Assembly (NCBI RefSeq): GCF_036785885.1
Contig: NC_092329.1
Span: 3,844,001 to 3,908,000, forward strand
Reading direction: 5' to 3'
Length of the DNA: 64,000 bases
DNA from: Coffea arabica
Taxonomy: Eukaryota > Streptophyta > Magnoliopsida > Gentianales > Rubiaceae
Both the position numbers and the translations under genes were made by a program. Below, one piece after another: positions 6,969-53,013 of the stretch (its first letter is position 1; each line of letters opens with the position of its first letter). Under the pieces are notes generated by a model. It saw only the letters and a program-made list of their open reading frames with translations. It ran no database searches and had not been told where the DNA came from.

Positions 6969-9900
6969 TCAGACAGGAATTGGTAAGCCCTTCTTTGCCA
7001 TGCTATCGAGGACATCATTCAGAGCTTGGCACAGCCCAACAATCTGTCAAAAGCAGCATAATATGTCAGAACGAACAATTAAATAAAGTGAAAGCTGCCA
7101 ATCATGCATTTTATTTGAGTGACTCTGCCAGACGGCATGAAAATGACCTGACCATCTAGGAAAGGCAGGGCAACATAAGCAGAAATTTACCTGTTGATCC
7201 CACTGTTGTAATTCCTCTGAATCATCCTCAAAATGTATGACACCTTCAACCTGACAAGATGGATCCCGTATTAGAAAAGGTCATGAGAAACGGTGCATTC
7301 ATAATTTCTGAGCTTCGATGGGCATGAGCGAGGTTGTGCAATAACAAACAAATGAAAGAGAAATGTAGAAATGTAGAGAACTCCTCGTCGCTGAAAAAGA
7401 TGTAGGATCTACCTGGTCAATAGATCCCCTCATTCGATCTTCACATATCATTCTTGAAGCAATTTTCTCAGCCTGAAAAGAAAATACAACATAGGTTCCG
7501 AGGGCCAGAAGACATGTAGGTTTATACACACGTACCTATGCACTAAGAATTCTACAGATTAAATAGTGTAAAATAATTGCATTAAACCCGTTGAGAAGAT
7601 GCAAACAACACTTGAAAATGCTGGCTACTATTTTCCAATGAGATTAATTGACTGCATATTCCAATGACATATATAATCAAGAATTCTCCAACATAGGTGG
7701 GGATAGCCTCTGTACTTCAATGAATGAATACAAAATGAACTCCAAAATAACCACTAACGAGCAAACACACCTAGAAAACATAGAAATTGACGAGAATGGC
7801 ACCAAATACTTGAAATTGGCAGAAAGAAACAGACCTTTTGAGGAGCAATGCCCAGCAAGGTCCCTAACTCATCAAAGCTATTTCAAAGAGACAATGCAAA
7901 ACCACATAAGCACATGTAGATACAAATACAACAACAGGATATATTGAAAGCAAAAAGAAAGTTGAAAAATTTGTAAATAGTAGGAGTAATATCAAATGGT
8001 TTTTCCACCTTATATTTGTGTAGAGTTTACTAGCACTCAAGAGATTGTGTTCAATCATAGCACGATCCAGGACAGTAAAATTGTCGGGCAGAAGCGCTTT
8101 CTGCAATAAATTTACACAATCCAGGGATCAAAGCAGTAATTAGAAACAGCTGCATCTAGCATCACATCCAAACCACCAATTAGAAAGTAAGTTAGACCTG
8201 ATGTGGTTTCAGCTCTTCTGCAAAAGCATCAATTTCTGGTTTTCTCAAAATCCTCTCCAAATAAACCTAGAATCAATGTTAAAAATCAAAAGACAAACAT
8301 AAAGGAAATGAAAAGGTAGAAGACAACAAAGAACTACATGCCTTGATATGCAAATCTACTGCATCACATTATTATGCTTATGAATCAGATAACATGCAAG
8401 TTTCAATAACGTTTACAGGAAAACAAGTTGTAGAAAATACCTTCTGTAAGATTGGATAAATCTTCAACTTGGAGCACCGTTCATCCTGCAACAAGGTAAT
8501 GAAATTTTAGGGGAGGAAAAAAGATGAAAGGAGTCAAAGGCCCATCAGAAGCACTAATTTTGGCAAAACGACTCATCTCATTATTATTATCACATCGTAC
8601 TAGCCTAATTTTAGTAACTACTCAAAGCTTATTCATAAGTTTCTTATAGGAGAAACATTGTTCGATCCCAACAACTATGACTACAAAGATAGATGTTATA
8701 GACAGTATTCTACCCACAACGTTGAGGCAAAACATATCTTTTCAAGTGATGAAAATCAGGGCTTGACCCTCTTCTGTAAAGATAAATCGGAAGTAAAGTA
8801 GCAGAAGAACTTTTGAAGAAATAGAGGAAACTTATAAAAGTGATAATAGCAAAACCCCATTTTCCTTTGATTGTAGACACAATTTCAGAGAAGGATACCA
8901 TGTACTGATTGTTCAACACGAGAATACAAAGATGAAATTTGCTGTGTAAAACATATCTTTTCAGGCTATGAAAATTAAGGGTTAACTGTCTTTGCCTGTA
9001 AAGATACATCAGAAATAAAGTGGCAGAAGAAATTTTGAAGAAATAGAGGAAACTTGTAAAAGTGATAATAGTAAAACCCCATTTTCCTTTGACCATATCT
9101 CATGAAAAATCAAGAGGTATATATTAGACACAATCTCAGAGAATGATACCATATACTGATTGTTTAACATGATAATGCAAAGATGAAATTTGTCTGGTTA
9201 AAAGAAAGAGCAGGAACCCTATCACGTTAACACAGGGATTAACCCCTTAGGGTAATTAAGCCTAACCAAATTCAAAACAAAGCATATAGAAAGCTCATGC
9301 AATCTAGTTTCTCATTATTATTAACCTTGTACAATGTGGCAAGAACACGTGAACGCTGAGGACCTGCTGCAGCCAAAATTGTGCATGTCACAGCAGCTGC
9401 TAGAGCTTGCTCCAACGCTTCTTCATCAAGCTCTCTGCAACAAAAATCATACTCATGAAGCACATACACAATACCAGTATAGATGTTCCAGAATCACTAC
9501 GAAAAAGAATGAATCAAAGTCTCATGAGAGAGATTTTTATTAAGGCTTGTATATTCTTGAGGACATTCAGTATCTATTTCCCAATGCAAATCACCCCTTT
9601 TTACATCTAATTCTTAAAGTACAAATGTTGACAATTATCTGTATGCAGATTTGGCTTCAAGGAGGCAGTTTAAGTCTAGAAAACTTACTCATCCCCAATT
9701 TGCCGCTTCTCTATTTGGGAAATGTCATAATAACGTAGAGCAGCTTCCAAAAATTTTCTTTTCAGATCAAGAACCCTAGCATAGCAAACCTGGTACAATC
9801 AAGATACAATGATTAAAGCATAATAATGTCGTTTCCAGCCAAAAGATATTCTTAACATCAGATAATGTCTACCTTGTACTGCAAATTCAACACTTCGTGT

Positions 9901-17740: not shown

Positions 17741-20700
17741 ATGGAAAACTCTGGTAACTATCAAACTTCGTTGATTATAACTCTTTTTTTTCTTCCCTTT
17801 ACATATGCTGTATTTCTGTTAAATTTGTCATGCGATGGTTTAAATTTCGGATGATGCATATATGTTTATCCCAGTTATTTTGCTGTTTTTTCCTAGTCTG
17901 TTCAGATTTAGTTAATTTCTTGGTTTTTAATGTTGATATGGGAATGGATTGTGCTTCACTTGAGCTAATATTTTCTGATTATCTCTGAATTCGTTGCGAA
18001 GAGCTGTGGGTGTCACTTTTGGATATCTCATGGACTATTTTTCCTCGTATATAATATGTTGGCTATGATTCATGTAAGAACCCATCAGCAAGCTGGAATC
18101 CGATGGCATCCCACTGGTTGGTTGCCTAGGAAATTTAAAGAGAAAAGTTGGAAGCTTTGGGGAAGTTCACATGCATCTATATGTATATGCTATTAATGTT
18201 TGTGTCAGTACGTGAAGCGGTGAGCTAGAATATGGATAGTTGACAATGAATTTTGTTGTTGCTTTTCGATGATCAAGAGTTTAGAGTCTAAAAGAACTTT
18301 TCGAGTGAAGATAGAAAATTGATAAACAGAATACAAAAAAATAAATAAAGAAGTAAAAGGTGGTCAAGAAGATGTATTAGGATGGAAAAGAGAGGTAAAA
18401 GTGTATATAATTGCACATTGCAATGCCACCGAAATAAGATGTCAATGCAATGGATGAGGTTATCACAAGTTTTGTCATGGGTTCCTTTTTATCTCAATGT
18501 CTATTCCATTCTATGTGAAGCAGAGAATCATCAAGGAACGAGGGTGCCACCAGTTGAAGGTATTGCTGGAGGAGGGACAGCGTACGGATGGAGTGATAGT
18601 AGTGTACATGATCCAAGTAAACTCAGGGGGTCTATTGATCCTATGAAGGTTCCATCTTCAGAATTAATTCATGTATGGTGCATGCCAAGCACAGCTAACG
18701 TCGGACCTCAGGATATGCCACGATCATTCGAACCTGTGAGTGTTCTAATGACAGGTTCACTGGTGGTTTTGCTTTGTTACGAGTTCATGTTAGATATTGT
18801 TCCTTTACAACCATCCCATGTGCCAGTTGGTATGTTAATTCTGTGTGTTCCCAGACTGTATGCTTTTTCATCAGATCTTCTGGTGGACTAATTGGTCCCA
18901 AGGATTCAGGCCGTTATTTCTAGAATGCCCTGTCTTGCACCACTTTAATGTCCCATTCTCTGTCTGCGCTCATTATTTATCCTTAATTCTTAGGAGTCAC
19001 AGTACAAGTTGTTAGCTGAGAGACGCTTGCCTCGGACTCCGATACTGTCTGGCAATGATTGTGCTTGTAATCATCCTTATGAAACATAAAAATAGTGATT
19101 TTACATCATTTAATCTTTACAGTCTTCAATGGTGCCTGGGCAATGTAAAAGTATCATATTTGAAGAGTGCATTTGCATCTGATTTTTGGTTTATCTTGCA
19201 GATATCTCTTCTAGCAGCAAGAAATGAGAGGGAGAGTATTCAAATTGCTTTACGTCCAAAATTGTCTTGGAGTGGATCTGGTATTGCAGGGACTATACAA
19301 ATTCAATCTACAGATCTATGCTCTGCTTCAGGAGAAAGGTTCATTTCTTAGCTCTGCTATTTCGGTGCTTTAGATTTACTAATGATTAAAATTCCATGCT
19401 GTCAATGGTACATATCTTGTGTGCAGACTGATAGCTGGCCAGTCACTGACACTACGGCGAGTAGTTTCCATGTTAGGAGTTCCGGATGCTCTTGTACCTC
19501 TTGATATGCCAACCTGTCAAGTAAATTTGTTTCCAGGGTATACAATTATGCTCATGTTTTAGTTGGCATGGCTTACTTATTGAGCTTTGTCCTTCTGGGA
19601 CACTACAAATTTTAATGAGGACTTTTTTCTAATTTTTATTTTTGTAGTGAAACAACAGCAATTTGGGTTTCTGTAGATGTTCCAAATGCACAGCCCCCTG
19701 GTCAATACGATGGAGAACTCATAATTACTGCCATTAGAGCTGATGCAGAGTGATTGTCTATCCTGTTTACTTAAGTTAAATGTTATTTTTATTGTGTTAG
19801 ATTTATTCCGTGACCAGCTTAATTATTTTGTTTCCGTGTTACTGATGAATTGTTTCAATATGGTTCACTTTACTTCTGGGGATGTTACTTGCTGATTTAT
19901 TTACTATGCCTTACCGCAGGTCTGCAGCAAATTGCCTTGGTAAAGCCGAGAAGCATCAATTGTACAAGCAACTTAGAAACTGTTTTGAAATTATGGAGCC
20001 AATTGATGGAACACCATTAGATGAAGTGGTTGGTAGTCTGGAATGGATCTGAAGCTGTTGCAATTTTCTTTGACCTAGGGTTTTTACTCACACAAGTTCT
20101 CTCTTTCTAGGTAGAAAGGGTCAAATCAGCTAGCTCATATCTCAGAATGGCTCTGGTGTCCCCATCATTTTCTGATTGCTTTCCAGATAACGGCCCAGTA
20201 GATATGATGGATGAAGATGCTATTTCAAACCTTTCTGTCAGACTGAAGATAAGTTTGACGGTTTGGGACTTTGTTCTACCAGAAACCCCTTCCCTTCCTG
20301 CTGTTATTGGTGTATCCTGCACATCTTAGTGTGGTTGAAAGCTGAATTTGATGGGCTAACTTTGGAAAGTGTTTGCTATTCGAGTTTCTTGTACCCTATT
20401 TGGCTGTCTTACAGAGTAGTAAATGACTTGATTTATGAGTTTGATCCAAGGAATCTACTTATTTTCAGTTCCAAATACTGCTATTTATGAGGTTACGTTC
20501 TAACCAAGTATGGTGCTAGTCTATTACTACAAATGATGTGAAATGTTGGCTCGTTTATTTTGTCTGAGCTGTTGTTGGAATAGTTAACATTCCATTTGTA
20601 ATGTGTTATTATGCTGTTTTGGCTTTTGAATGCTAATGGATGTACTTATGCTGAATAGGATACTGAAATTTTGATGTTTATAGGAGAGACTTGTTTTTCT

Positions 20701-23700
20701 CCTTTTCTGGATGGCCAGCTTGCATTTTAATCTCAATGAGATACTACTGTAAAATAGTGGACCATGTCTCCTTAGCTATATTAGGTATCTGATACAGTAA
20801 TTGAAGATCGTTTTGGTGTTGAACATGGAAGCAGTGACTGGTACGAAGCACTGGATCAGCATTATAAGTGGCTGCTTCAGTACAGAATCAGTCCTTACTT
20901 TTGCAGATGGGGTGAGAGCATGAGAGTTTTGACATATACCTGCCCATGGCCAGGTATTAGAGAGAAGTTGCTTTACAATATGTCTACATTAATGTGTTTT
21001 GAGACTCAGCACTTTTAGATAATTAATTAACCTGCTGACGCCAATAATAAAAGAGTGCTGTAACTTTGGTTTTCTTAAGCATGCTGTTGAACATGTGCTG
21101 CTTATTACCTAATTTATTATTACGCTATTTATCATAGTGATAAATTTTTATTCACTCCCTCTCTCTCTCTTGCTGTAGCTGATCATCCAAAATCAGATGA
21201 GTATTTTTCTGATCCTCGACTTGCAGCATATGCTGTACCATATAATCCAGTTGTATCCAGGTATGTAAAGACTTGTCTTTTTAAAGATATGTCAGTTGCT
21301 TTCCTGGCATCAAATGTTAATGAGTTTCTTTTGACCTTTTGACTCCCATTAGTGGTGATACAACGGAGGAATACTTGCATAAAGAAGTTGAGATATTGAG
21401 CAAAAAGAATCACTGGAGAAAGGCGTACTTTTACCTGTGGGATGAGGTAAGAACGTGGTATTACAAAGTTCCTGAGACCTGTATCTTGTTCTGAAGAGGC
21501 TTGAGGTTTAAATTCTGTGTTTTATCTTTTCATTTCCCATTCTTCTGTGAGCTTTATTTTTTAAATTTAGTTATTGTGGTTCAAGTGCTGTTAAAAAGTT
21601 AAATATATAGTTTATCTACTGGTCTTACTATAACTGCTGTCAAACACTGGGAATTTCCCTAGTTTGGCCTATATATTGCATTGCTGATTTATGTTCTGAT
21701 TTTTTTCAGCCACTAAATGTGGAACATTATGATTCAGTTCGCACCATGGCCAGTGAGATTCATGCCTATGCACCTGATGCTCGAATCCTTACTTCATACT
21801 ATTGCGGTGCGGATTGGCCTGTCTTTCTAAATATGTTATTGCTATTTATTTATTCTCTTCTCTCCGCTCCTCCTTTCCCTTTGCCTCCCCTCCTGCGGGG
21901 GTGAATGTGACATTAAAATTTGCATATGGTAGTTGTCTTTCATGTAGTGTAGTCTAGTTACTGGTTTTCTGGATCATGTAACTGATTTGTTGGAAGAAAA
22001 GATAATGGTACTAATTAATAGTTTTATCAGTATGATTTGGTGGAATCAGAAACCATAGATATCAAAGCATGGTTTCTTAGGAGGTGCACAAGGAGAAACC
22101 ATGGATAGGAAATTGAGAGTAGCAAATGGAACTTATTAGCTTATATCTGAAATTCAAAATGATTCAGAGTACTATGTTTGGTACCATTTATAGGGTAAAT
22201 AATGAAGAAAAAGCCTAGTCTGGCAAAATTGGTGTTCATTGATGGTTTTTACTTCACATAACTTAAACAAAATAGAGTGAGATCAAAATCTTTAAATAGA
22301 ATTTTTCCAAAATACGGCCTGAACTGGATCCATTTTGGCCTGAATAATGCAGGCATAGTATCCTTTTATGTTACATTTACAATAATATGATGAGTTTCTA
22401 TTTTATATTTTCCACAATTTTCTTCTTTCCATAAATCATGCAACTTCCTCATTTGGACCCTGCATTATTTGGATTTTGTGCATCAAGTCTTCTTTCTTCT
22501 TTAATTTCTTCTTTTTATTCCTTCCTTTTGGTTGGCTGATGTTATTAGTATTTTGGCTATCACTGTTACTTCAACTATAATTTGTAAAATGAAAACTAAT
22601 AAATTAGCCTACTTTTGTTGCATTCTTAAGTTTAGCTTCAGGTGCACTTTTTTAACAAACTATGAATTAATTACTCCCACCATTTCAAACTGAATTTGCA
22701 ACTTGTACTTGGGATGAGTTTCAATATGAAGTGGGCAAAGTGTTCGTGTATGAGGGAATGTCAGGTCCTGTGACTTAGCTTTGGATTATAAGCATTCAGA
22801 ATTGTCTTAGCGTGTCTAAGGAGTATGTTTATTGTGGTTTTCATCCTTTTTTGTTATAAGTTGACTTCATTGTTTTTCATGCAGATACGTGTGTCATAAA
22901 GCTTAAAATATTTGGACTTAGTATAATTTTCTAATATTTACATAAGAACAAATTATGGATATGCATCAACTCAACTTTTTTGTTGATGTAAGAAAAAAGA
23001 GAATACAAGATATCATTGTGCTTCTGATTGATTTTAACTTCATCTGGCAAATGATGTGAGCATGAAACTTTGTAAAGTGAAGAATTAGATGTGACTAATA
23101 AGCAGCTTTATTTCTGGATTTGCCTAAAACTTTGGGAATATCTATCATTTGTCCTGATATTCTCATCTTGCCCTTTTCCTTACCACTAGACAAGTTCCCA
23201 TTGCTCTGTTACAGAATGCAGATTTAGAGCTATCCATTAATGCCTCTTGAACTTTATTCAGGTCCAAGTGATGCACCTCTTGCTTCTAATAGTGCTTCTG
23301 ATTGATTTTAACTTCATCTGGCAAATGATGTGAGCATGAAACTTTGTAAAGTGAAGAATTAGATGTGACTAATAAGCAGCTTTATTTCTGGATTTGCCTA
23401 AAACTTTGGGAATATCTATCATTTGTCCTGATATTCTCATCTTGCCCTTTTCCTTACCACTAGACAAGTTCCCATTGCTCTGTTACAGAATGCAGATTTA
23501 GAGCTATCCATTAATGCCTCTTGAACTTTATTCAGGTCCAAGTGATGCACCTCTTGCTTCTAATAGTGCTTCTGATTGATTTTAACTTCATCTGGCAAAT
23601 GATGTGAGCATGAAACTTTGTAAAGTGAAGAATTAGATGTGACTAATAAGCAGCTTTATTTCTGGATTTGCCTAAAACTTTGGGAATATCTATCATTTGT

Positions 23701-26477
23701 CCTGATATTCTCATCTTGCCCTTTTCCTTACCACTAGACAAGTTCCCATTGCTCTGTTACAGAATGCAGATTTAGAGCTATCCATTAATGCCTCTTGAAC
23801 TTTATTCAGGTCCAAGTGATGCACCTCTTGCTTCTAATAACTTTGAGGCTTTTCTTAAAGTTCCGGAGTTTCTGCGCCCACATACTCAAATATATTGTAC
23901 AAGGTATTAGCGTCATTTATTTTCATTCATGGTACTTATGTGTCTCTAAGGAGGATGAATCTGCATCTGTGTAATTAAATGTTAAATTACATTTCACCAA
24001 TTTAAAAAGGCACTAGCATTAATTTTTTTGATGAATTGACTCTAAAAAATGTTAAATGAGAATTTTGGACACATACGTGCTATGGTATCTCTACGAAGCT
24101 CAACTGCGCCACATATTTCCAGGACACAGATGTCTAGACATGTCTTTCATGAACAAATTTGTGTTCCCTCTTTCATTTCTCCACTACAAAACAAAAAAGT
24201 TTTTGTCTTGCTTGAAGGCTATATCTTTATTTGTGAGTAAGCAAATTGATTTTAAGGGATATCAAATGACTAGTTTAACTTCTTTACCCTATTGGTCGCT
24301 GTCTTCACTTGAATTGGTAAGTTGGGCTGAAATGGTACTACAACAGGAACAGTGAAATCCTTTCCGCATGTCTTTGATATTCTTCTTACTTACTGATTCC
24401 CATGATTAAGGGTAATATGTTAGGATCTCATTTCCTTTTTCTTTTTTCCTGTGGTTAAATGTGATTCTCATTCATCATGCTTATCCCTGATTAACACTCT
24501 TCTGATGGAAAGGTAGTTGTTTTATGATATTTAGCTCTTGATGCACTTTATTATTTGTTTATTATTTTTGGGCTTCAGTAAGGAAAGTTTAGTAGATCTG
24601 TACATTTGGTTTGGATTTTAAATTGTAGAACCTTTGGCTGCAATTTAAGTGCTCTCTTTTGATGATTTTCTGTCTCTTTGCAGTGAATGGGTGATTGGTA
24701 ACCGAGAGGATTTGGCTAAGGATATCATTGCTGAAATACAACCTGAAAATGGTGAGGTAATGTACACTGAGGGTTCACTAAGAGTCTACACTCATAACTA
24801 GTTTTCTACTTTGTGCGTCTGATTTGACATTCTTGTCTCCTTTAGCAAGCTAATTCTGGCCTGGCCTGTTTATAAAGAGCTCAAGATTAGTTCCCAATTT
24901 TGACGTAACTTTTGTCGTGTTGATATTATTGAATCATGTCAATAACCCATTAATGTAATATAAACCACATTTCCAAATGCCATTTTTTAAGGTCCGGTCC
25001 ACAATTTTTGATAGGGCAACTTTGATCTGATTGGTTCCTTGCATCAAGTTTTCCACCTAGAAGATAGCGCATGTTTCTTCAGCAGATCATGTTCCTGATC
25101 ATTATAACCAGTTGCTTGTAAACTTTTTCACTTATGAGATCCGCTTTCATACAGGAATGGTGGACATATGTGTGTATGGGACCGTCTGATCCTCATCCCA
25201 ACTGGCACCTTGGGATGCGAGGTACACAACATCGTGCAGTGATGTGGCGTGTATGGAAAGAAGGGGGAACAGGTTTTCTGTATTGGGGTGCCAACTGTTA
25301 TGAGAAGGCCACTGCTCCAAGTGCTGAGGTTTTTTCATGCGTCTCTATGTCGTCAGCTGTTTATTATTAGCAGTTTTATCTTTTATGTCTGATACTCTGT
25401 GCTATTATATGCCTTTTTGCAGATAAAGTTCAGGCGTGGCCTCCCTCCAGGGGATGGGGTCTTGTTTTACCCAGGTCAAGTATTCTCATCTTCACAACAA
25501 CCTGTTGCTTCACTAAGACTTGAGCGGCTTTTGAGTGGCTTGCAGGTATTGCTTTATCACATTGAAATTTCTATGCAATTCTCTCATTTTACTTTGCACA
25601 ACCTTGCGCAGCGTTAAGCCTTCTATAAAGCACAACGTTGTGCTATGCTACTTTATACTTTGTTTCACATATTGATCCATGAATGGCAAGTAATCATCTT
25701 TATTTTCATGCTTTGATGAGATGTTTTGGTGGGAGTATGGAAACTGGGAGGGGTTATTACGTATGACTTCCATGCCTTGCCTGATTGAACTGGATCTCAT
25801 TAGGTATCAGGAAGAAGAATTCCTCCATTCCAAGGTCCACCTTTTATTTACTGGTTCCTGAAATTATCCTGAAAATTTATGATTTCAGAACCTTCTCTAT
25901 TTTCCTTCCTTCTAATAGATATCTTAGTTACAAGACTGTATCTTCGGTTTTCTGTCTCCCTATTTCCTGTAGATATCTGTCTGCTGGTGTTGGCTGTATG
26001 CTGAATAGCGTCCGCTAGCATGCAGTGAAATGCAATTTGGTTTTGAACTTAAAACTGATAGCCATATATAACTGGTATTGATATGAAATGAAAAGAAATA
26101 AAGGTTTAGTGTATGGTATTGATTTAGCCATGAATAGCTGCTCCCAGGGTGGCATTGAGCTTAGCTGATAGCCCTATTACTGGATTTCATCGTTTCAACA
26201 ACCTTCCATGCTTGCTATTGGTAGTCAAGCTCATTGAGCTTTTTCTTTCCTCTCTCGTTTAGACCACTGATGGTTGGTTATTTTCGGTATGTCTACTCTC
26301 TGTCGGTTCACCCAGGACATTGAGTACCTCAGGCTCTATGCTTCAAGATTTGGTAGGGATGAAGGACTTGCTCTGCTGGCAAAGACAGGCGTGTACTTGG
26401 GTCCAGAGCGATACACTCTTGAACACACTCCAATTGATGTAATGCGTGGTGAGGTGTATAGGACTTGCCGATCATGA
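17741..26477 (+). CDS. Glycoside hydrolase 123-like protein with DUF4091 domain
   Basis: Sixteen exons join in phase: 17741-17753, 18521-18735, 19202-19338, 19427-19537, 19648-19749, 19920-20028, 20111-20311, 20785-20953, 21179-21260, 21353-21446, 21710-21806, 23810-23903, 24684-24756, 25155-25328, 25423-25545, 26316-26477. They give 651 residues. The sequence matches the conserved single-copy plant family annotated as DUF4091/GH123 catalytic domain. YFYLWDEPLN places an Asp-Glu pair at about 410-411, the pair GH123 beta-N-acetylgalactosaminidases use for substrate-assisted catalysis. No signal peptide is seen, and the plant substrate is unknown to me. The first coding exon is only 13 nt; it is chosen because its phase fits and MENSAENHQG reads naturally. 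An ATG at 18382 in an extended exon 2 is the alternative. The exon 12 acceptor lies in a triplicated segment, described separately. Confidence 0.88.
23018..23839 (+). repeat. Perfect three-copy 274-bp tandem repeat spanning an intron-exon boundary
   Basis: Copies are 23018-23291, 23292-23565 and 23566-23839, and I see no difference between them. Each holds 244 bp of intron ending in ...TTTATTCAG plus the first 30 nt of exon 12 (GTCCAAGTGATG...). In copies 1 and 2 the 30-nt exon piece is followed by GTGCTT. In copy 3 it continues into the rest of exon 12. Confidence 0.95.
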
Positions 26478-27322: not shown

Positions 27323-27992
27323 CGTTTGGATTAGTTATTTTTTAAAGTGTTTTTTAAATATTTTACTATAACAGTGTATATGAAAAATTTTATACTATAA
27401 ATGTTTTTTGTGATGTTTTTAGAGGTTTTTTGGGATATGTTCTTTAGAATATTTTTAAAGTTAAATTTTTTTTTTTTGATATTTTTAAAAATTACCGCTA
27501 CCACCACGTCCCTCCTCTCCCTCTCTCTTCCTCCTACTCCCTTCCTTCTTCATCTTTTCCCTCCTCCCTTCCTCTCCCTTTTTCCACCACGCCTCACCCC
27601 TCTTCTTTTTCCCCGATCTAGCCGAGTTTAGATCAAGACCTCTGGTCATGACATCGCGGCCAGATCATAGTCTCTGCCCGAGGCTTGATTTGAGAAGGAA
27701 TGGAAGGGGTGGGGTGCGGCGGGAAAAAGGAGAGGAAGGGGAAGGGAGGAGGGGAGGAGAAAGAGGGAGGGAGAGGAAAGAGGAAAAAGGAGGGGATGAT
27801 ATCGGTAGTGGATAAGAGTGATGGTAATAAATGGAAAAGGAAAATAGTATAAATTTTATTTTTTTGTATATTTAGAATTGTTTTTTTATATATTGTATTG
27901 ATATAATATTTTTTAAATTGTTTTTGTTTATATATTAATGTAGTATTGCATATGAAAAAACTTGTTTTTAAAAAAATGAGAAATCCAAATGG
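27323..27992. mobile_element. Foldback transposon with pyrimidine/purine stem (family P, copy 1)
   Basis: The left end CCGTTTGGATTAGTTATT pairs with the right end, whose reverse complement reads CATTTGGATTTCTCATTT. The interior has a CT-rich block (about 27505-27610) followed by an AG-rich block (about 27690-27800) that can pair with it. There is no transposase, so it is non-autonomous. A second member lies at 56842-57427. Confidence 0.8.
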
Positions 27993-28940
27993 AGTGGTCT
28001 GCGAAGTAAAATGACTTGGAACATTTTTGCGAATTGGAAACTACAAGAGCTTATTCATATTCGTTAGACGCTAGAGATTATGATTGAATATCTTTAATAC
28101 AAGTTACAAGACTTTCTAGTCTCGAACGTGAATTAATCTGATAATTGGCTTTGATATTTTAATCTGTGCTCTTAGCAAAATAAAAAATTGATACGTATGA
28201 TGTTTTATTTGTTAGCGGGCGCACTTGCACCCAAAAACTGAGACCATATCTGATCGGCTGATCCTTAATGATTGACTCTCAAATTGTACAAGGCCCTTGA
28301 TAAGCATGTGACCATATGCTGTTTCTCCCTCCTGGGTCCTGGGTCGAAAAAGCAAGCCTCAGGTTGGCTCGACATCTGTGGTTCGGGTATCTACCCCGAA
28401 TCGGATCTAAGGATTTTACAATTGTCATTCCAAAGTGCACTATACAATGTATACACTGGCAAAGTATGCTTATTTACCAGAAATTATAGCGCGCATGCAT
28501 GCAAGAAGTTCTCTCTCTCTCTCTCCTTCAAAAGAAGAAACATCGGTTATTACAAGTTATAAAATCATGCAGAAATTCTACCATCTCTTTTACTCGTATT
28601 TTCGATATCATTCAATAATTTAAACTCTTAAAACCATGTAAGAGGTGATATCTCTACCTCTATGATTATCATGATTTTAGGGATTATCATGTTTGTATCT
28701 ATCGTTTAATAATGTGATGCTGCTTTTTATAAGTGAATATCAAACTCTTATGATTTTCAGTTTTTTTACCCAAAAATTCTAAAATTAATTTTTAAAATCA
28801 GTTAAAAACACAACAAAATAGCTTTTCAAAAGTCAAAAACTAAAATCATATTTTCAAAATCAATTGAAAACATACCCTTACTAAAAGTTAACTCGCACAA
28901 CCAAGCTCATCATACACATCATCTTTCTTTTTCTTAATGC

Positions 28941-36218: not shown

Positions 36219-38779
36219 ATGAATAATTCATCAGCAATGGCAACAGTCCCTTCGGCTTCTGAAGAAGCTAGTGTTTCCTCAGCTGGCAATCCAATGATAG
36301 CTGCTCAAGTTGGACCCGTCAAGAAAAGGCGTAACCTTCCTGGAATGCCAGGTAGCTGCTCATGAATCATCACTATATAGCTCCTCAAATCGTACTTGTA
36401 CCTTCCTAATTTTTTATCTTAAAAAACTAGTGCTATATTTTTCTCTTTTCTTTTGTTTCTTTTTGGGGCATTTATCCGGTAGTTTGTATGTAGATCCAGA
36501 TGCAGAAGTGATAGCCTTATCACCAAAGACTCTCCTAGCAACAAACCGATTTGTATGTGAGATCTGCAACAAGGGTTTCCAAAGAGACCAGAATTTGCAA
36601 CTACACAGAAGAGGCCATAACTTGCCATGGAAACTCCGGCAGAGAAACGGGAAAGAAGTTAAAAAGCGCGTGTACGTCTGCCCTGAAGCAACCTGCATTC
36701 ATCACGACCCCTCCAGAGCACTTGGGGACCTAACTGGCATCAAAAAACACTTCTGCAGAAAACACGGCGAGAAGAAATGGAAGTGTGAACGGTGCTCTAA
36801 GAAGTATGCCGTCATCTCCGATTGGAAAGCCCACACGAAAACTTGCGGCACCAGAGAATACCGCTGCGACTGCGGCACCCTATTTTCCAGGTCATTCCAC
36901 TAGAACGAAGCTAAACTCAACGAGTTTTCTCATTCGTTTCTTAATGAACATTTTCCCCCTTCTTTTTCCTTGTTTGTTTTCTCTTTTATGAAATGAAGGC
37001 GGGATAGCTTTATCACGCATCGGGCGTTTTGTGATGCCTTGGCGCAAGAGAGCGCGCGGTCCCAAACCCAAACTTTGGCTATAACTAATGAGGAGGGAAC
37101 GTTGAAGGTCCAGGCTCAGACGACGACGACGAGGACGTCGTCATCGAGTCCTCCACCGCCTCCGCTTACTCCGTCAACTGGCGTGCTGTCTCCGGTTTTG
37201 TCTATTCATAGCTCAGGTGGGTGACGTGTATAGTCTTCATCTTTGTCCACATTCTTTTTACTAATATTATTGGTTTTTCTCGTCGTAAGCCAAGACAAAA
37301 ACGTGGATACTATGAACCGTTAACATAATAAAAAGAGTATTAGTACTAACTTTCCACCCCACCGTAGACGTTCCCCTACTCTCAAGGTTGTAGAACTTGT
37401 GAGTTGTGAGTGAACCTTTTGCTTTTGTCCCTTTGTGTCCTTGTTTTCATGTGTGACTGTTTCTGTGTGTGTGTGTGGGTTTGTGTGAGAGAGGGTGCTA
37501 CTCTACAGTCTGTGCAACGTATCTCCCTCTGAAATCTGCGTTTCCGAAAAATCTTGTTTGTTGATCTGGAAACTTTAGAGGGGTTTTTTTTTTTTTTTTT
37601 TTCAAATGTGAATCGGATAGCTCAAGGATCGAAGAACTATCAAAGGGGGAAGAGATGATTCAATGACTGAAAGGATTGCATGATTGCCTTTGCTTTTACA
37701 GGAAAGGTCCTTAAGTGCAATTTGTTGGATACTGAGTTTAATAATAAACTTTCAGGCAGGATCTGAAAAAGGCCTTGAAAGCCTTTTCTTTTGCTGGAAA
37801 GGGTGTCATACTATCTTTTTTGTTATTCCTAGAAGTATTTCTCAACTGTCTCAATCTTTCCTTCATTTTCTTTCTTTTGATTGTAGAAATGCCGGAAAAT
37901 CTGATTGGCCGTTCACAACCACAACCAGGAACGCCTCAGCTATCCGCTACATCTACCACCTCGGCAGCTGCAGCCACTGCCGGCAACTCTTCCTCGCCTT
38001 CCGATGCTAACGTCAGTAGCACCACTGGTGTATTTGCTAGTATACTCGGAGCCTCAGGCTCAGCTGGGCTGTCGCGATCTTCGCAGTCTCCTTCATCTTT
38101 CTCTGGCCTACTGTGTGCGATGGGCGGACCAGAGCGATCTGCTGTCGAACCCATATCGCTCTCGTTGTCCTCTTCGCTCTACCTCTCCAACCATCCATCC
38201 ACATTGTTCCCAAGCACGCCCCAGGATCATCATCCTAGGCACTATTCGACGAACCCTCAGCCAGCATTGTCTGCAACTGCATTGCTTCAAAAAGCAGCTC
38301 AAATAGGCGCGGCATCATCAGGATCATCTTTTCTTCGCGGTCTCGGTTTGGCAATGCCATCCTCATCCGACCTTCAAGATACCTGTGCTAGTCCAAGCAC
38401 CGCCACCGCCCCCGCCACCGCTAGTGCATCTGCATCCACTGCAAATTGGATGATGAGCCATGTAAAGCCAGAGAACGGTTCAGTCGCACCTGGGCAGCTT
38501 GGACTAGGACTAGCTTCCGATCATGCTGCTTCTGGTTTAACCGACCTAATGATGGGGCCACCAACAATCTTTGGTGGCAAGCCCACCACACTTGATTTTC
38601 TTGGCCTGGGAATGGCTCCCGGTGCTCCATCTTCGGATGGGATATCTGCATATCTGAGTTCAATGCGAGGAGGGGGTCTTGATGTTGCGGCTGTGGCTGC
38701 AACCTCAACATTTGGTGGGATTAACTTGGGTGGCAGCGGTTGGGATGATTCTTCTGACAGGAAGCCTACTTTACTCTAA
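36219..38779 (+). CDS. INDETERMINATE DOMAIN (IDD) C2H2 zinc-finger transcription factor, IDD4/IDD5-like
   Basis: Four exons join in phase: 36219-36351, 36494-36890, 36999-37216, 37887-38779, giving 546 residues. An N-terminal basic KKRRNLPGMPDPDAEV signature leads into the four-finger ID domain: finger 1 FVCEICNKGFQRDQ (about residues 64-86), finger 2 YVCPEATCIHHDPSRA, the CCHC finger WKCERCSKKYAV and the last finger YRCDCGTLFSRRDS. The long tail is Ser/Ala-rich and ends with the family motifs TALLQKAAQIGA and TLDFLGLG. Such proteins are nuclear and bind DNA with DELLA and SHR/SCR partners. An in-frame ATG at 36138 would add 27 residues; 36219 is preferred because MNNSSAMATVPSASEEASVS resembles family N-termini. 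The exact IDD number needs a tree. Confidence 0.94.

Positions 38780-52974: not shown

Positions 52975-53013
<39 letters not shown>

Follow-up and report, generated by a model that had tools for sequence, protein, structure and literature searches.

The stretch of the Coffea arabica genome analysed here comprises 64,000 nucleotides (nt) (C20:3844001-3908000, forward strand; hereafter the window, to which all positions refer). It carries a 16-exon gene in which a unit of 274 base pairs (bp), running from the last part of intron 11 into the first part of exon 12, is present three times in tandem. The gene product is predicted to be a plant beta-N-acetylhexosaminidase of the GH123 Group-2 type (NgaAt type). 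The Pfam model of the catalytic domain, GH123_cat (DUF4091), matches it with an E-value of 1.3e-20 and 74.5 bits (cut-off 23.1); the host had been named as a DUF4091 gene in the original prediction, which was made from the letters alone. A phmmer comparison with the PDB entry 8k2h gives 1119.5 bits over residues 11-649, and the WDEP of residues 408-411 is aligned with the WDEP of 8k2h, placing the catalytic DE motif at residues 409-410. Judging by its molecule name and its sequence, 8k2h is most likely NgaAt. NgaAt (AT1G45150) is a GH123 Group-2 beta-N-acetylhexosaminidase of Arabidopsis, the structures of which have been described (PMC11087588). The exon borders of the coffee gene were placed by eye, according to the reading frame, the GT-AG rule and plant homologues, and were later supported by the alignment with 8k2h. 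In this alignment the protein free of any insertion runs gap-free at the start of exon 12, which falls within the stretch YYCG/PSDAPLASNN (a slash marks an exon border throughout). For intron 6, an equivalent border can be chosen instead, and it leads to the same protein.

The array was located at 23018-23839 by Tandem Repeats Finder (period 274, 3.0 copies, 100% matches, 0 indels, score 1644), and a direct string comparison shows all 274 bases to be the same in the three units. They are arranged head-to-tail, and each joins the final 244 nt of intron 11 to the opening 30 nt of exon 12 (Table 1). Consequently, there are three acceptors, whose AG stands immediately before 23262, 23536 and 23810. 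They share the same 244 nt on the upstream side and the same 30 nt on the downstream side, and the third alone has the full 94-nt exon and a donor behind it. The 30-nt pieces of copies 1 and 2 are directly followed by GTGCTT, at 23292 and 23566, respectively. In all these respects, that is, the perfect triplication, the identical acceptors, each with the same 30 nt of exon 12 behind it, and the GTGCTT that follows in the first two copies, the earlier description was right, coordinates and lengths included.

Table 1. Features of the host gene and of the 274-bp array (positions in the window; U1, predicted pairing with U1 in kcal/mol)
Feature	Position	Strand	Basis or remark
GH123 Group-2 type beta-N-acetylhexosaminidase gene (predicted), 16 exons, 650 amino acids, frame intact	17741..26477	+	By-eye exon model, translated; Pfam, phmmer
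Exon 11, donor GCG/GTGCGG	21710..21806	+	Exon model; same donor context in C19
Intron 11 in the most likely splice form, 2003 nt	21807..23809	+	548 nt longer than it would be without the two extra units
Unit copy 1	23018..23291	+	Tandem Repeats Finder, string comparison
Unit copy 2	23292..23565	+	Tandem Repeats Finder, string comparison
Unit copy 3, continuous with the rest of exon 12	23566..23839	+	Tandem Repeats Finder, string comparison
Candidate 30-nt microexon 1, acceptor CAG/GTCC, candidate donor ATA/GTGCTT	23262..23291	+	In frame; U1 -0.3
AG/GT at acceptor, CAG/GTCCAA	23262..23267	+	U1 -5.6; re-splicing would give a zero-length exon and the normal mRNA
Cryptic donor GAT/GTGAGC in copy 2	23330..23335	+	U1 -4.4; with acceptor 1, a 68-nt exon with in-frame TGA at codon 457
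Candidate 30-nt microexon 2, same sequence as microexon 1	23536..23565	+	In frame; U1 -0.3
Candidate branch site TTAAT, about 22 nt before acceptor 3	23785..23789	+	Consensus match only; repeated in each copy
Exon 12 in the most likely splice form, 94 nt, donor AAG/GTATTA	23810..23903	+	Exon model; gap-free against 8k2h here

That such an array is due to chance is excluded. A search for the unit throughout the 1.198-Gb genome (1,197,963,845 bases, 131 contigs; E <= 0.001, very common words skipped) returned four matches, namely the three array copies and one single copy with 98% identity on contig C19. Since the unit is found only at these places, a transposable or dispersed repeat is unsupported, and a search of the window against Rfam gave no match to a structured RNA at the gathering thresholds. 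The array was also considered as a piece of a repeat-prone region, with the base rate of tandem repeats taken from the window (64 kb) together with 80 kb of C19. This idea was rejected, because the six other repeats of period >= 40 in the window match at just 77-95%. Five of these six have a counterpart in C19 (periods 58, 150, 84, 40 and 42/41), while the 46-bp one is without.

The homoeologous locus on C19 contains one unit, and the C20 sequence minus two units aligns with it across both breakpoints without any gap there. We take the single copy as the ancestral state. The array evidently arose in the C20 lineage, because C19 is single-copy and aligned through both breakpoints; contraction on C19 instead of expansion on C20 is formally possible. 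Head-to-tail copies that hold an intron end and an exon start, combined with a single copy in this relative, characterize a tandem genomic duplication across a 3' splice site. The homoeologous gene on C19 is open, with 650 amino acids (aa) and 5 amino-acid differences from that on C20, and the two genes differ at 12 of 1952 coding and 116 of 6226 noncoding sites. Within the unit there are 5 substitutions and 1 gap base, or 3 and 3, depending on the alignment. No clear shift of homoeolog divergence is seen at the array, the values of the 500-bp bins from 22500 being 1.2, 1.7, 1.1, 2.4 and 2.4%. Window positions 1904-63984 lie in blocks colinear with the C19 stretch compared, several of which are separated by gaps, with positions 1-1903 outside. 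Elsewhere in this comparison, the divergence amounts to about 15% in the 500-bp bin 27500-28000, against 0.4-3.2% across the bins of the gene; at about window position 7766, C19 carries some 5.4 kb extra that C20 is without; and at 52985-53013, where the window has a run of 29 G, C19 is without an 18-base G-rich piece.

Over the 3 x 274 bases of the array the copies show 0 differences, and 7.7 mutations would be expected at the age of the homoeolog split, if the noncoding rate of the gene is applied (P about 0.0005). The expectation is 12.3 at two wider rates, which are nearly equal (1056 substitutions in 35245 sites, from a survey without window positions 7766-31038, and 360 in 11988 from a second comparison). 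Because the copies are without any difference, the array appears to be younger than the homoeolog split, and the 95% upper bound on its age is 24-39% of the split with these three rates and 67% with the low count of substitutions in the unit itself. If the species split is placed at 4-6 million years (PMC11018527), the bound becomes about 1-2.3 million years, and 4 million years under the most lenient assumption. At the rate of 1.3e-8 given for the dating of long terminal repeats in the same source, the array would be under about 0.28 million years old. Polyploidy is dated there to 0.35-0.61 million years, and by these bounds the array may have arisen before or after it. In addition, gene conversion or unequal exchange may make the copies appear younger than the first duplication.

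As to the subgenomes, the matches to Pfam Methyltransf_7 sit on numbered contig pairs (C1/C2, C13/C14, C17/C18 and C19/C20, among others). An exon on C1 is alike to the dimethylxanthine methyltransferase 2efj at 125 of 127 positions, and an exon on C17 matches the xanthosine methyltransferase 2eg5 at 98%. The matches on C2 and C18 are less alike to 2efj and 2eg5, and some of them may be paralogues, not counterparts. Both structures are presumably those of C. canephora proteins. On the basis of these two genes and the presumed source of the two structures, the odd contigs are probably canephora-derived and C20 is probably eugenioides-derived. Gene clusters of caffeine-type methyltransferases are seen on both C17 (35.90-36.06 Mb) and C18 (32.88-33.06 Mb).

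Then, how could the array have been formed? The microhomology at the junction is 0 nt, so that slippage at a junction microhomology is ruled out. A 7-mer, TGCTTCT, occurs at 23019-23025, which is 1 nt inside the left end, and at 23281-23287, which is 4 nt from the right end; it does not form the junction. A precise duplication that is independent of junction microhomology conforms to patch repair, and in rice the repair of adjacent nicks, rather than slippage, has been proposed for tandem duplications and most insertions (PMC7971508). We suggest that a staggered break, or a pair of nicks, opened the DNA at two points separated by 274 bp, the first in intron 11 and the second 30 nt into exon 12; fill-in and end-joining without microhomology would have turned this into a tandem duplication. 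Unequal exchange or slippage between the identical units would then have added the third copy.

Acceptor choice, donor use and isoforms are judged here, throughout, from the sequence together with published experiments. The third acceptor would be favoured, because only 23810 has the full exon 12 and its donor (U1 -5.7) behind it. In most transcripts, exon 11 would then be joined to 23810, copies 1 and 2 would be merely extra intron, and the protein would be normal. In mammalian extract, duplicated acceptors were spliced at the distal site only and inefficiently, with concurrent occupancy being inhibitory, and an earlier report that exon length affects acceptor choice is mentioned in the same paper (PMC5389562). 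Two side effects may be envisaged. Some use of acceptors 1 and 2 would mostly produce mRNAs in which codon 457 is a stop, and the splicing of intron 11 might be less efficient owing to simultaneous occupancy of the identical acceptors. The only TTNAY-like candidate for the branch site at the usual distance from the acceptor is TTAAT, in place of which C19 has GTAAT. The latter speaks against TTAAT as the branch site, or for a change, and the homoeologs may differ in this respect. On the whole, we consider it probable that the array is a real and recent tandem triplication in one homoeolog, namely that on the probably eugenioides-derived C20, and that its third acceptor is mostly used.

Several points weigh against this reading. 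The two-step history and the acceptor choice are what we infer, the latter from sequence. The unit differs from C19 by just 3-5 substitutions, and at this low divergence 4.5 mutations would be expected at the split age (P 0.011), which makes the age argument weaker. The unit of 274 bp is long for the mechanism proposed in rice, where the share of tandem duplications drops from 70% of events to 5% once the length reaches 200 bp (PMC7971508). The closest plant case, an RNA-dependent RNA polymerase (RdRp) gene of potato, did gain a new exon and a new intron (PMC4974935). Furthermore, GTGCTT may be usable as a donor, because other donors that seem to be in use in this gene are weak as well (GGT/GTATCC, U1 -0.5; AGA/GTGATT, U1 -1.7), although their borders were set by eye. 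Both of these weak donors are unchanged in C19.

The alternative that survives best is that the upstream acceptors are used, or occupied together with the third, often enough to act as a splicing decoy, so that the output of C20 would be lowered through a 68-nt exon ending at GTGAGC, an exon extension or intron retention. Of these products, mRNAs with the 68-nt exon or the exon extension meet a stop at codon 457 and would be subject to decay. By U1 scores and reading frames, the candidate cryptic donors downstream of an upstream acceptor include a poor one, GTGCTT, and a good one that leads to the stop, GTGAGC, which recurs after acceptor 2, at 23604, by unit identity. GTGAGC is a strong hexamer, ranked 9 in human data (PMC12480690). 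Seven exon ends were tested, among which those giving 0, 6 and 30 nt stay open, while all four exons longer than 30 nt meet the TGA at codon 457, and plain read-through starting at acceptor 1 meets it too. Splicing is also inhibited when both of two duplicated acceptors are occupied (PMC5389562). However, the distal preference would spare most transcripts, and the hexamer ranks and the occupancy data come from human or mammalian systems. Such a decoy is therefore regarded as possible, although not as the expected outcome.

The original prediction had raised the possibility of new exons, that is, acceptors 1 and/or 2 pairing with ATA/GTGCTT to give one or two 30-nt microexons. Its statement on the frame holds, since the phases match and the translations remain open, with 660 or 670 aa in place of 650 when one or both pieces are included, and the insert of 10 or 20 codons, announced as of PSDAPLASN type, is precisely the decapeptide SPSDAPLASN, added once or twice. 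The insert would be near the active-site region along the chain, as proposed, and yet not beside the DE motif, for it follows residue 452, 42 residues downstream of E410. GH123 groups of different specificity are distinguished by added loops or hairpins of the barrel, on the second, third and eighth strands (PMC11087588), which would make a decapeptide in a different loop of the barrel worth attention. A further argument for microexons is that the duplication across a 3' splice site in the potato RdRp gene did create an exon and an intron in a plant (PMC4974935).

The weak part of the proposal is the donor. The predicted U1 pairing of ATA/GTGCTT is -0.3 kcal/mol, weaker than that of all 15 inferred donors of the gene (-0.5 to -9.6), and its score in a small gene-trained matrix is -2.47 compared with -0.85 to 5.66. 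The matrix was built from the same 15 inferred donors with which it is compared, and the argument consequently rests on U1 pairing. Among the 10 GTs between acceptors 1 and 2, six pair better than GTGCTT and three are without stable U1 pairing; CAG/GTCCAA is the best (-5.6), followed by GAT/GTGAGC (-4.4), and CAA/GTGATG at 23268 (-1.7) would make a 6-nt in-frame exon. The main text of the hexamer study does not include GTGCTT (PMC12480690). Moreover, potato relied on a cryptic GTAAG donor (PMC4974935), microexons have been described as less efficiently spliced than regular exons (PMC8831610), and the distal acceptor was the one used in the duplicated-acceptor test (PMC5389562). The microexons are thus weakly supported at best, and we think it improbable that the 30-nt pieces are spliced in as exons. 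It is likewise very unlikely that two new exons have been caught at birth, in which case C20 transcripts would contain 0, 1 or 2 such exons, the catalytic barrel would have one loop lengthened by 10 or 20 residues, and C19 would be the unchanged control.

Recursive splicing, in which acceptor 1 would be used and CAG/GTCCAA would then serve as the donor to the next identical acceptor, leaving 0 extra bases, is very doubtful too. An AG/GT is present at every acceptor, and its U1 pairing is the best of the 10 GTs tested, but GTCCAA is a very weak hexamer in human data (rank 241, SSE 0.038; PMC12480690) and scores -1.47 in the gene-trained matrix. The end product would be that of normal splicing, so that only intermediates could reveal it. 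Of the two explanations formerly offered for the perfect identity, a very recent origin agrees with the identical copies and the single-copy homoeolog, while an assembly error, with one or two copies in the true genome, would yield the same identity and is highly improbable: the array of 822 bp would fit inside single reads, C19 was assembled as a single copy, and the C. arabica high-fidelity assembly, provided that it is the build used here, was made from DNA sheared to 20 kb of a di-haploid reference line, in which there is no second allele to confuse (PMC11018527).

In addition, the window contains other genes. An exon of a BIRD-IDD type zinc-finger transcription factor is located at 36301-36903 on the forward strand (Pfam C2H2-2nd_BIRD-IDD, E 1.8e-22), and an open reading frame of 343 aa at 37748-38779. 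Pieces of cytochrome P450 genes occupy 43138-63297 on the forward strand, where all of the matches to PF00067 (six of the 10 open reading frames scanned) are found, and the presence of four N-terminal exons points to at least four P450 genes in tandem.

The array represents a natural duplicated-acceptor experiment, with three acceptors that differ only in their distance and in what follows them, and the very similar single-copy homoeolog in the same nucleus is a built-in comparison. It bears on acceptor choice in plants, on the mutual blocking of identical acceptors and on the birth of new exons from a very poor donor. If there are no such effects, it shows a plant gene absorbing a duplication harmlessly.

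The kind of event, a recent tandem duplication across a 3' splice site, is already known. As for the protein, NgaAt (AT1G45150) is a full-length relative with the DE motif and the YYCGPxDAPLA stretch; it is without an insertion at the point of the decapeptide, and the triplication is confined to the C20 copy of coffee. The patch-repair duplications of rice, for which the repair of adjacent nicks is proposed, are likewise perfect tandem duplications in a plant, but their share drops beyond 125 bp, whereas the coffee unit has 274 bp and three copies (PMC7971508). The beta-globin constructs with duplicated 3' splice sites also have identical acceptors in one intron and an exon stub after the upstream copy, of 14, 55 or 205 nt compared with 30 nt in coffee; they are artificial, mammalian and two-copy, in contrast to the natural three-copy array of a plant (PMC5389562). 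In the potato RdRp gene (PGSC0003DMG402000361), a plant tandem duplication similarly spans an intron-exon border, reaching from the 3' end of the intron into the 5' part of the exon after it, with the branch site, the pyrimidine tract and the acceptor carried along (PMC4974935). However, potato has two copies with ten differences and coffee three identical ones, and the potato gene has a cryptic GTAAG donor with 106 RNA reads for its new intron, while the coffee donor is a poor candidate. Unlike the potato gene, the coffee array has a single-copy homoeolog beside it.

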